Shown: positions 4,481-56,391 of the stretch, in pieces
Layout of the letters: each line of letters opens with the position of its first letter
Position numbering within the stretch: position 1 is the stretch's first letter
NCBI RefSeq assembly: GCF_010015585.1
Contig: NW_022985067.1
Location: forward strand, 124,001 to 188,000
DNA: 64,000 nt
Direction of reading: 5' to 3'
From: Eremomyces bilateralis CBS 781.70
Taxonomy: Eukaryota; Ascomycota; Dothideomycetes; Eremomycetales; Eremomycetaceae
Notes under the pieces: model-generated
What the model was told of the DNA's origin: nothing
What the model saw: only the letters and a program-made list of their open reading frames with translations
Database searches by the model: none
Position numbers and translations under genes: made by a program

Positions 4481-5622
4481 TCACAAGAAATACTCCGTCT
4501 GCACCTCCTTCCCCTGCTGCTGCTGCTCCGCTCGATGCACATCATTTTCCGGCGCCGCCTCAAACACATTGAAGAACCGCTCTCCGGTATCGCTCACCTC
4601 CAACACGCTCGCCAAGTTCCCGCATCGGTAGCAATAATTCGGCGCGCTCCACACCGTACTCAACCGATCGTCGTACAGCACCTGATACCCCTCCTGACAC
4701 AGCTGATGCGCGCGCAGGATGTGGCTCATGTTGTTCACCTCCAGGAACTTCTTCACCACCTGCGCGCCGAACGTATACCCCGCGCCTCTCGGGCTCAGCG
4801 AGAACTCATCCCGCTCCGCGTCCGGATCCGACCACACTAGATCGGCCATCGGCCCCTCGTGCGGGATCTCCCGGAAGCGGTCAATGATCTTGATCTGATC
4901 GATGGAGTGGATGCTGGGGCTCAGGCCGCCGTGCACGCAGAAGATCTGGTCGTTGATGACGACGGAGAGTGTGAGGAAGTCGAACATGTCGGTGAAGTAG
5001 TGCCATACGTTGGCGTTCCCATATTTGCGGGAGCATTCGGTGTAGAAGCCGTAGGATTGGGTGACGCCGCGGGACTCGTGGTTACCGCGGATGAGGTGCA
5101 CGCGATGGGGGTAGCGGAGTTTGAGGCATACAAGGAGGGAGATGGTTTCGACGCTGAAGAGGCCGCGGTCGACGTAGTCGCCTTCACGCAATAATTTGTC
5201 AGCCGCTGGGTGCCGCGACGGGAGTCAGATGGGAACGCTTACCGAGGAACAGGTAATTGGTATCCGGACAAAAGCCTCCAATCCGGAAGATCTCAATCAT
5301 GTCGAAGAACTGCCCGTGGATGTCGCCCACTACAGTGACGGGCGCGGCAATGTGCACCACGTTGCTCTCCTTCATGAGCAGCTCTTTCGTCTTCGCGCAT
5401 ATTGCCTCGATAACCGAATCCGCAAGCAACTCTTTTTTGTATAGCCGCGAAATGCACTCGTCAAGGTCCACGGTGGCTATTTAGACGTATAAGTTAGCTT
5501 CTTAGTCTCCAAATGCTGCCACTGCCAAGAACATCATCCATCTCCCCATGAGATGAGTCCAGCGCACAAATTCCGGACAGCACCTCGAGTCAGAGAAAGG
5601 TCATACCAGGTAATCCCGGCAT
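4481..5622 (-). CDS. ppg1: Serine/threonine protein phosphatase Ppg1 (PP2A-like catalytic subunit)
   Basis: Exons 5622-5607, 5476-5243 and 5181-4481 give a 316-residue enzyme starting [20 protein letters not shown]. The metallophosphatase signatures are all present: GDIHGQ, GDYVDRG, RGNHESR, and the later metal-binding HGGLSPSI and [10 protein letters not shown]. The tail ends in YFL, the PP2A-type C-terminus, preceded by a Gln run. Sequence and length fit Ppg1, a PP2A-like phosphatase that in yeast works with the Far (STRIPAK-like) complex, rather than PP2A, PP4 or Sit4. The first coding exon is only 16 nt; without it the protein would have no ATG, since the long frame begins at GTG. The intron that follows exon 1 (5606-5477, GTATGA donor) is the largest in the gene. 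Function in this organism is inferred. Confidence 0.93.
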
Positions 5623-5689
5623 CGTAACAATATTTCCACCAACGCTCGCTCAGCGTGGGTATATACGTGCTGAACTATCAGCGAGGACG

Positions 5690-5896
5690 ATGCCTCCGAA
5701 AACGAAAGGTAAGGAGGGTATGCTCGCCGCGGCGTTGTGGAGCGAAGCGCTCATGTTCGTGTATGTACGTCAACAGACCAAGGAGCGCATGCTGGAGAAA
5801 GACATGTGGATTGGACTGCTGCAGTGCAAAGAGAAGCTAAGAATGGAGGTTGGTGACCAACATATTCGCAGCAGGAGTGGTGGGTGTGGACGTTGA
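5690..5896 (+). CDS. Possible 68-residue ORF divergent from ppg1
   Basis: A small open frame starts 68 bp from the ppg1 start on the opposite strand. It encodes MPPKTKGKEGMLAAALWSEA followed by a helix-prone, Lys/Glu-rich segment and a low-complexity tail (HIRSRSGGCGR). The ATG context (GGACGATGCC) is reasonable. No family is recognised and it may be chance; a spliced small gene is possible because a GAG/GTTGGT donor-like site lies near 5848. Confidence 0.2.
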   Translation: MPPKTKGKEGMLAAALWSEALMFVYVRQQTKERMLEKDMWIGLLQCKEKLRMEVGDQHIRSRSGGCGR

Positions 5897-7324
5897 CTTG
5901 GTCGAGACATCAAAGATCATGGAGTGCAGCATCATCGTATTATTATGGAGTCTTTGGAGGCGGGAGAGAGTTAGCGCTGTGATTGGCCGATAAATACCCC
6001 TGGCTTACTAATTCCCGCAAGAGACCAGGGAGCTTCGACAACACTCTCTGCTCAGGACGATGAACATAGTACAAATTCAACTGAGTGCCATATGAAGATG
6101 AGTTAACGCATACTAGAACGGATTCTGTTCGAGAACGAGTCTCTTTTCACACATACATCTCCAAAGTCCTAACACACAATGTTTAACCAATCACTGGAAA
6201 TATCTGTTGGCCAATCAGCGTGTCCTGTCGAGTACCCTCATTTCGCTCCTCTGTCTTGAGTATGCTCCATTATGTCTACAAGTTCATCATTTTATGCTAG
6301 ATAGCAAGGGATTCGGGATATCAAAGGTTTCATTAAGTCCATGAGTATATCGTACTATGTAGAATAGAAGAATTGCAGGCTCCAAAGCCGTGCAAGAGAA
6401 GATGGGTATTGGTTGGTGCTGGACCCCTTCGGCATAACTTCGGGAATCGCATATCTCGGACCCAACACCTCAGGGAGCCCACTCAGCCCAGCTGCCGTCC
6501 AGGGCACGGTCCCTGAAGCCCAAAGTTGTGAATCTTCAGTTCCAGGTCATCAATGTTGTTTCGATAATTCAATCACTGCTTGGTCTAATACCCTACCTAT
6601 GTCAAACCTCTTTGTCTTCTCCTATCCTCTCATCGCCATGCTTTCCCAACAACATCCATCCTATTCTGCACCCGAAATATCCTAAGCCTCACGTCCCTCC
6701 ATCAAAGCAGACAGGAAAGGGATCGGGTATCAACCCCGTTGTTTGCTCTCAGCTCCTCTACTTGCTTGGTCATCTCCCTCTCAGCCATCCGTTGACTTTC
6801 TGAACCCATCCCCAACTTTTCGATCATCGCGCACTTCCGATTTTTGGATGGTGCTTCTCCGCCCTGTCGACAGCTGGATCCGGGAAGGGTGACCGGGGGT
6901 CGCCTTGACGACGGCGCTGGCGAAGCGAAGGGTTTCCAACTAACCAAACCCCGATTGAGAGAACGCAAGACGGAGAATATCAGCTTTGAGTCTTTTGATT
7001 CGGATCTGCTTTCGCCTTGATTGACGAAGTTGTTATCTATTGCGGAAGCAGAATTTCCTTGCGTCCAGAGAGCCGTCTGCTTACCCACCTCCCTTGCCTA
7101 CACACATCTCATTGCCTACACCTATCCCGTTGCGTACACATATCCCATTGATTACCAGTCGGAGTACGAGCCAGGAACTGGAAATACTACCTTGCATCCC
7201 CGTCGTTGCCTACATCGTAATATTTTCACCTTCTCACCTCTTCCTTCAATCTCATCTCCTATCACCTCTCCTGTCTACAACTCTTTTCCGAACAAGGACG
7301 CGAGCTACCGTCATCAAGATTTAA
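5897..7324. other. Long upstream region of the Pro/Gln-rich gene
   Basis: About 1.4 kb without a supported gene. The last 300 bases are strongly pyrimidine-rich with short repeats (CCTACACAC, CCCATTG/CCCGTTG units around 7095-7160), which looks like a fungal promoter and leader. Nothing else is recognised. Confidence 0.45.
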
Positions 7325-54254: not shown

Positions 54255-56391
54255 ATGGGTCAATACAAGAAGGAAGCGGCCCGAAAGGATCGGGAAGGGA
54301 AAATCAAAGGCGATCCCAAAATTAAGGGCGAGAACTTCTACAGGTACGAGAGCACACTGAGCCAACGGATGGATAAACGGTTACTAACTCTAGCCGGTAG
54401 AAATGCAAAGAAGCTCAAGACCCTTAATATGTTCAATGAGGGGAAGGCAGAGAGAAACGCTTCCGGCAGGATCACGAAAGCCGCAACCTTTCAATCAAGA
54501 GACATTCCAAATGCGAGAGTCGAGCCACACCGCAAATGGTTCACGAACTCAAGAGTTATCTCCCAAACCGCCTTGAATGCATTTCGCGATGCCGTCACCG
54601 CTCAGACTTCCGATCCCTATTCCTACCTCCTCAAACGCAACAAGATCCCCATGACTTTGATCCGCGACAACCTGCATGAGAACGGCGTGAAGAAACATAA
54701 GGCCAAGATGGCGCTCGAGACGATGCCGTTCAGCGAGACCTTCGGCCCGAAAGCGCGGCGAAAGAAGGTGCAGCTGGATGTGAGTTCCATGGAGGATTTC
54801 GCCAAGCGGGCGGAACAGATGCAGGATGATTATGATGGGAAGCAGGAGGAGGCCAAGGCACTCTTCCCGGACAACGATGCTGATGGCAACGTTGTTATGG
54901 ACTTGGATGACACGTTGAACACTGCCAAAGAAGCAATCTTCTCCAAGGGCCAGAGTAAGAGGATATGGAACGAGCTCTACAAAGTCATCGACTCCTCAGA
55001 CGTGATCATACATGGTACGAAATCCAAGAAACTTTGAGGCTACAATTTCTAACTTATGCCAGTCCTCGATGCCAGAGATCCGTTAGGTACACGGTGTCGG
55101 AGTGTGGAGAAGTACATCCGAGAGGAGGCTGCACACAAGCATTTATTGTTCGCCTTGAACAAATGCGATCTGGTGCCCTCCAGGGTCGCCGTAAGTCCTA
55201 TTTCCTTCTCCCCTTTCCGATCTAGATTCCCATTGTTAAGTCAAGACTCCTTCCTTATCTCCCGTGGAAGGGGTCTGTTACAACTTTGGGAGATAAATTC
55301 GACCTCGCGCTCCCATGGTCGTTTTGATTATGGGAGCAAGCCGCCGGCCGTTCTGGCCTGGCTTTGAGGTCTTTCGTGAATCTCTCGAGTTGGGCGCAGC
55401 CTACATTTCCGATGGCTGCACTCTTAGTGATGAATCATACATTCAACAATTTCATGCTTGAACTTGCGTTTATACGACGGTGTACTGATCGTTTCAGGCC
55501 CGATGGGTGAAGATCCTTTCCAAGGAGTATCCAACAATGGCGTTCCGCTCCTCGATCACCAATCCGTTCGGCAAAGGTGCCCTGATCAATGTCCTACGAC
55601 AGTTTTCGTCGCTGCATAAGGATCGAAGACAAATATCCGTAGGATTCATCGGATATCCCAACACTGGAAAGTCTTCGATGATCAATGCCCTACGAAGCAA
55701 GAAAGTCTGCACCGTTGCACCCATGTAAGTTATTCTACATTAATTCCATGCTTATTCGCTGACCATAAACAGCCCTGGCGAGACAAAGGAATGGCAATAC
55801 ATCACCTTGATGAAGAGGATATACCTGATCGATTGCCCTGGTGTTGTCCCACCGAGCAACAACAACACCGACGAAGACATCCTCCTACGAGGGGTTGTCC
55901 GCGTCGAGCGAGTCGAGCACCCCGAGCAATACATCGACGCCGTGCTCAAGCGGTGTCGCCAGCGCCATGTCGAACTGACCTACGAAATCAGCGGATATAA
56001 TAATTCCACCGAGTTCCTGGAGATGATCGCCAGAAAGCGTGGACGGCTGCTGAAAGGCGGGGAGGCCGATCTATCGGGCGTGGCGAAGCTGGTCCTCAAT
56101 GACTTCCTCCGCGGAAAACTGCCGTGGTGCACGCTGCCTCCGGGTTGGGTGGAGGGCCCGAAAGGCCCGATATCAAAGGTCGGTGGTGACGATGCGGAAT
56201 CGGAAGTTGTTGAGTCCGCTGGTCTGGAGAGCGATCCTTTGTCGGATGAGGATGAGGATGAGGCGGGGAGCGATGACGCTGAGGATGAGGATGAGGTTGA
56301 GCAGGAAGGAGAGGGAGACAACGATGACGACGCTGCCGCTGCCGCTGAAGCATCGGAAGGTCAAAGCGATTTTGAAGGCTTTGAATCATGA
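54255..56391 (+). CDS. nog2: Nucleolar GTPase 2 (NOG2), 60S subunit assembly
   Basis: Exons 54255-54343, 54401-55014, 55063-55190, 55498-55724 and 55773-56391 encode 558 residues. The N-terminus has [20 protein letters not shown] and [20 protein letters not shown]. The GTPase is circularly permuted, as in this family: G4 NKCDLVPS comes before G1 GYPNTGKSS and G3 [24 protein letters not shown] and [14 protein letters not shown] follow, then an acidic tail. NOG2 checks late nucleolar and nuclear 60S maturation before export. Introns 1, 2 and 4 are about 50 nt, but intron 3 (55191-55497) is 307 nt and appears to host a snoRNA. Confidence 0.95.
55225..55444 (+). ncRNA. Candidate H/ACA snoRNA (snR191-like) inside NOG2 intron 3
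   Basis: Hairpin 1: upper stem AGACTCCTT (55244-55252) pairs with AAGGGGTCT (55268-55276). It is flanked by AGTCA (55239-55243) and GTTAC (55277-55281). These pair with UGACU and GUAAC around C-U-A in 25S helix 69, leaving exactly the two pocket bases U-A. The lower stem CCCA/TGGG is followed by the H box AGATAA (55291-55296). Hairpin 2: upper stem GCAGCC (55396-55401) / GGCTGC (55414-55419), with GAGT (55387-55390) and TAGT (55425-55428) fitting ACUC and ACUA around the second uridine. Its lower stem GTGAATC/GAATCAT is followed directly by ACA (55439-55441) and three more bases. An extra 8-bp hairpin (55309-55337) lies between. In budding yeast snR191 sits in the NOG2 intron and guides these two positions. 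The fit was made by eye; the rRNA target is from memory of the conserved helix. Confidence 0.72.

Follow-up and report, generated by a model that had tools for sequence, protein, structure and literature searches.

The long third intron of NOG2 in Eremomyces bilateralis very probably carries an orthologue of the H/ACA snoRNA snR191

Why is one intron of a ribosome assembly gene so much longer than its neighbours, and does it hold an RNA of its own? In the 64,000-nt stretch of Eremomyces bilateralis CBS 781.70 DNA analysed here as a whole (the window), the gene in question lies on the + strand at 54255–56391, and its five exons join into one open frame that encodes 558 residues in our model. 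The product has NGP1NT (160.8 bits) and MMR_HSR1 (71.1 bits) domains in Pfam, matches four chains in the PDB that bear the name Nucleolar GTP-binding protein 2 (E values from 4.9e-207 to 2.9e-190) and, among 120 homologues listed, is closest to the deposited protein of the same strain (P0001, 98% identity, full length). By these sequence comparisons (Pfam, PDB and homologues), the gene is NOG2. Its introns measure, in order, 57, 48, 307 and 48 nt. Intron 3 (55191–55497, + strand) runs from GTAAGT to TTTCAG and falls in phase 0 after codon 277, between VPSRVA and ARWVK; the first-pass annotation had singled it out as long beside the gene's others, and its limits are exact and the contrast holds.

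The same annotation read a snR191-like box H/ACA snoRNA in this intron and proposed a search with Rfam. Family RF01263 (snR191) matches 55228–55444 (+ strand) over model positions 1–273 of 273, with 47.1 bits against a gathering threshold of 46 and an E value of 1.6e-7 (64,000 nt versus 4,227 Rfam families), thus full length and above the curated cut-off; the ends of this match define an RNA of approximately 217 nt. The margin over the cut-off is 1.1 bits, and in the alignment (mean accuracy 0.75) several pairs of the central domain and of hairpin 2 are non-standard. RF01263 is the sole match in the window at gathering thresholds. The NOG2 intron is also the only match reported from the 26.6-Mb genome, where 28 of 533 first-look candidates were scored; in 14 control genomes the family found a match at E values up to 1 in three, and above the cut-off in none.

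The elements follow the H/ACA order of hairpin, H box, hairpin and ACA, much as they had been read by eye. The H box AGAUAA (55291–55296) fits ANANNA and aligns to the Rfam consensus box; the ACA (55439–55441) comes directly after the last stem, 3 nt before the predicted 3′ end at 55444; and an extra central domain stands between the H box and hairpin 2. With a score above the curated threshold, NOG2 as host and the guide pockets described below, we hold with high confidence that NOG2 intron 3 carries the snR191 orthologue of E. bilateralis.

Both guide pockets agree with the proposed complementarity to helix 69 of the large subunit rRNA. Pocket 1 is formed by a 5′ guide strand AGUCA (55239–55243, complementary to UGACU) and a 3′ guide strand GUUAC (55277–55281, complementary to GUAAC), leaving exactly the U-A of GUAAC-UA-UGACU unpaired. 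Pocket 2, formed by GAGU (55387–55390, complementary to ACUC) and UAGU (55425–55428, complementary to ACUA), leaves the U-G of ACUA-UG-ACUC, two bases along. On the helix 69 string GUAACUAUGACUC, the 5 + 5 bases of pocket 1 therefore sit at offsets 0 and 7 and the 4 + 4 bases of pocket 2 at offsets 3 and 9. This string is the conserved sequence given in the first-pass annotation and not the organism's own rRNA, since two patterns for the E. bilateralis 25S helix 69, the second allowing two mismatches, had no match in the 26.6-Mb assembly, from which the rDNA may have been left out. The string had no exact match in viral contigs, nor did a scan of viral contigs return a relative of NOG2.

Spacing is consistent with a working guide at both sites. 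From the first base of the 3′ guide strand it is 14 nt to the H box in pocket 1 and 14 nt to the ACA in pocket 2, and H/ACA RNAs are described as placing the target uridine 14–16 nt before either box (PMC2780460). The combined pattern of pocket 1 and H box occurs once in the window, inside intron 3, with 0.12 occurrences expected and at least one found in 10 of 100 shuffles. The counterpart sites in yeast are 25S-2258 and 25S-2260, both assigned to snR191 in the account of PMC8307265.

Intron 3 is also strongly structured. Folded whole, it has a z-score of −5.23 (no shuffle of 100 as stable), and the gene's remaining introns are unstructured (z-scores of 1.08, 0.38 and 0.51). The stability comes mainly from the 5′ hairpin and the central domain, with hairpin 2 adding less. 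The 5′ hairpin (55229–55290, + strand) has a foot of CCCA/UGGG followed by GUU/AAC and an upper stem of 55244–55254 with 55266–55276, and none of 200 shuffles is as stable (z-score −4.38).

A second fungal intron allows the structure to be compared between species. NYXK01000235.1 (hereafter L002), a contig of 107 kb deposited as part of a ‘Deltaproteobacteria’ metagenome-assembled genome, holds a fungal NOG2 at 5001–7297; of the 120 proteins, the one that it matches with the highest score is named Venustampulla echinocandica (P0035, 82.7% identity). Judged on this locus, the contig looks like fungal contamination of the bacterial assembly. Its NOG2 has an intron of 329 nt at the same codon junction and in the same phase 0 as E. 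bilateralis intron 3 (between VPTGVA and AAWVR), and the RNA within it scores 43.0 bits against RF01263 (E value 3.7e-7), 3 bits under the cut-off. All 18 guide bases are identical in the two species, and the interval of 14 nt from 3′ guide strand to box is kept in both pockets.

Most of the stems compared around these invariant guides keep their pairing. Across five stems with 27 pairs (two sequences only, with stems picked by folding and represented in the 5′ upper stem by its base and in the central domain by its outer closing pairs), six pairs show double changes that still pair, four have one-sided changes, 15 are unchanged and two are unpaired in one species. The double changes fall at the bottom of the 5′ upper stem (one of five pairs), the central closing stem (two of five) and the 3′ upper stem (three of ten). 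When the 3′ upper stem is shifted by one to three bases, between 5 and 8 of its 10 pairs fail in one species or both; in register a single pair of the ten is unpaired, in the window RNA. Other parts of the L002 RNA fit less tightly. Folded freely at full length, this RNA lacks the 5′ guide hairpin. The hairpin forms only if guides and boxes are kept unpaired or if its piece is folded alone, and the isolated piece has no stability beyond that of shuffles (z-score 0.37, 124 of 200 as stable). The L002 H box, AGAUUG (6055–6060), breaks ANANNA at its last base. That base would also begin the central closing stem.

Pocket 2 had been described as the weaker of the two, and it is: the pairing is 4 + 4 with one extra U on each side, and hairpin 2 (55376–55438, + strand), folded alone, has a z-score of −1.89 (10 of 200 shuffles as stable), the outermost pocket bases pairing with one another in the free fold. 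One might accordingly suppose that the snoRNA is real and that only its 5′ pocket works, the second uridine being left to another guide or remaining unmodified. We consider this unlikely. The Rfam consensus has the same GAGU...UAGU pocket with an extra base on each side, so the weakness is a family trait, and yeast snR191, which shares that family, is credited with both sites in PMC8307265. The L002 RNA keeps pocket 2 exactly, at its 14 nt from the ACA, in a hairpin that is stable by itself (z-score −3.63, 1 of 200 shuffles as stable), and it is the stem above this pocket that holds the three double changes in ten pairs. A guide with two active pockets is the reading that we retain.

The additional central hairpin noted at first is present, as part of a three-way-junction domain (55301–55371, + strand) in which a closing stem (55301–55307 with 55365–55371) carries two inner hairpins. 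Folded alone it reaches a z-score of −5.63, with 0 of 200 shuffles as stable. It is no oddity, however: the Rfam snR191 consensus is likewise branched here, with a closed helix and two inner hairpins between H box and hairpin 2, which rules out a new architecture. In L002 the central piece adopts the same topology when folded alone (z-score −3.08, 2 of 200 shuffles as stable), and this topology is missing from the constrained whole-length fold. Because the Rfam alignment is poor across the domain, with non-standard pairs and low posterior values, homology rests here on place and topology, by which the central domain is probably typical of the snR191 family. A multi-branch loop is mentioned for yeast snR191 in PMC12389098.

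Guiding needs only the two outer hairpins of an H/ACA RNA. We raise, as a conjecture that is rather unlikely, that the branched central domain is a third functional module of snR191; what suggests it is the closed three-way junction seen in E. bilateralis, in the L002 piece and in the Rfam consensus, whose five outer closing pairs include two that are changed on both sides between the two fungi. Were this true, the domain could bind a pre-60S factor and time modification to the maturation of helix 69, where Nog2 and the tail of Rpf2 are described as lying (PMC7385084).

The deposited gene model treats the same region differently. P0001 has 12 extra residues at the intron 3 junction, and joining 55063–55194, 55337–55368 and 55498 onward reproduces it letter for letter. 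In this model the donor is moved by 4 nt and a 32-nt part of the central domain (55337–55368, + strand) becomes an exon, which together with 55191–55194 supplies the 12 residues. These fall shortly after the NKxD motif of the GTPase. If the model were right, two introns would surround a small exon, and the snoRNA would not be made, or would come only from differently spliced RNA. P0001 equals such splicing exactly and its frame is open, yet we find this very improbable. Of the six positions of GTAAGT, the two donors that it uses share 2 and 3, the donor of the plain intron 3 all 6, and those of the remaining three introns 4, 4 and 6; the insert interrupts residues that are invariant in a 10-sequence alignment; and the exon would cut through the central domain of the RNA. 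Of the 120 listed homologues, counted by a pattern (P0051, which the pattern missed, was read separately), 117 have no insertion at this junction, two have two residues and P0001 alone has twelve. On splice sites and homologues we reject the exon as real, and the insert is very likely a gene-model error. The single 307-nt intron is the structure that we use.

Two Aureobasidium homologues (P0096 and P0113) have a pair of added residues, LQ, at this junction. Such a pair would fit an annotated acceptor (TTGCAG) lying 6 nt upstream of the true one, which would give these genes an intron at that position also.

That the intron holds a decayed relic, a former snR191 that is now non-functional in E. 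bilateralis, would suit a score so close to the Rfam cut-off and is nonetheless most improbable, given that boxes, both pockets and both spacings are all intact, that the 5′ hairpin and central domain are much more stable than shuffles, and that no other copy is reported from the genome (among the 28 of 533 candidates scored) to take over.

How does this locus compare with known systems? In budding yeast, as the first-pass annotation stated, the intron of NOG2 contains snR191, which guides both pseudouridines of helix 69 (described in PMC8476143 and PMC8307265). The E. bilateralis RNA resembles S. cerevisiae snR191 (intron of YNR053C, RF01263) in its NOG2 host, H/ACA architecture and both guide pockets, and resembles the Rfam family in an additional base on either side of pocket 2, the branched central domain and an ACA three bases from the end. 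It differs in being shorter, at 217 versus a reported 274 nt, in its diverged stems and in a host gene with three other introns.

The nesting had been expected to prove ancient, with a filamentous ascomycete as evidence. As biology this expectation is supported; as a discovery it is not new, having been published in 2021. Lim et al. describe the position of the NOG2 intron as conserved in 72% of fungi, report H/ACA snoRNAs within it in eight intron-poor species (one of the eight a low-confidence prediction), among them Cyphellophora europaea and Sporothrix schenckii, and propose coordinated expression (PMC8476143). A NOG2-intron snR191 is therefore an already recognised fungal arrangement, with the evolutionary point in print, and our locus resembles those eight in having an H/ACA snoRNA in the position-conserved intron, a likeness by description and not by sequence.

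Other reports bear on how widely the arrangement extends. In the filamentous ascomycete Trichophyton rubrum, Trnc_4006, an experimentally sequenced intronic cDNA of 251 nt, was assigned to RF01263 in 2013, with snoGPS targets listed as 18S-935, 25S-1239 and 25S-2245 (PMC3890542). The relevant passage leaves its host gene unnamed; the likeness to our RNA is one of family and intronic state. A 2016 study, a point against our reading, gives snR191 orthologues in all Saccharomycotina, and its relevant section names no other group for snR191, Pezizomycotina included (PMC4937481). For Neurospora, 2 of 20 H/ACA genes are intronic, in a text where ‘snR191’ does not occur (PMC2780460). Some yeasts have lost or moved snR191, according to PMC4202332 and PMC5033589; the NOG2 intron is thus its usual location, not a strictly defining one. 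Our literature search found no report of an intronic H/ACA snoRNA in Aspergillus fumigatus and, judged by titles and opening lines, none that places a snoRNA in an intron of GNL2, the animal homologue.

By analogy with the known snR191 family, the NOG2 pre-mRNA would be spliced and intron 3 trimmed to the RNA of about 217 nt while bound by H/ACA proteins. These are Cbf5 and its partners. The resulting particle would pseudouridylate two uridines of helix 69, the counterparts of U2258 and U2260 in yeast 25S, the first through the 5′ pocket and the second through the 3′ pocket. Expression, modification and regulatory coupling in E. bilateralis are all things that we infer from that analogy. In yeast, removal of the intron is reported to cause a fitness defect that is cured by restoring it (PMC10667330).

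A guide and a pre-60S factor that share one transcript would be co-expressed; that Nog2 is coupled more tightly than this to modification of the 60S is speculation. During assembly, the tail of Rpf2 is placed between the GTPase domain of Nog2 and helices 69–71 (PMC7385084), an arrangement that lends appeal to having the guide in this host gene and proves no coupling.

What is newly noted here is that P0001 of E. bilateralis carries 12 residues translated from inside the snoRNA intron. A gene finder can translate part of an intronic snoRNA as protein, and inserts of this kind may point to intronic RNAs that other annotations have missed. For the family, the locus offers confirmation at the level of base pairs, in a Dothideomycete, that a guide for two highly conserved rRNA pseudouridines very probably resides within the gene for a 60S assembly factor, a protein that works beside the same rRNA helix that its intronic guide would target.
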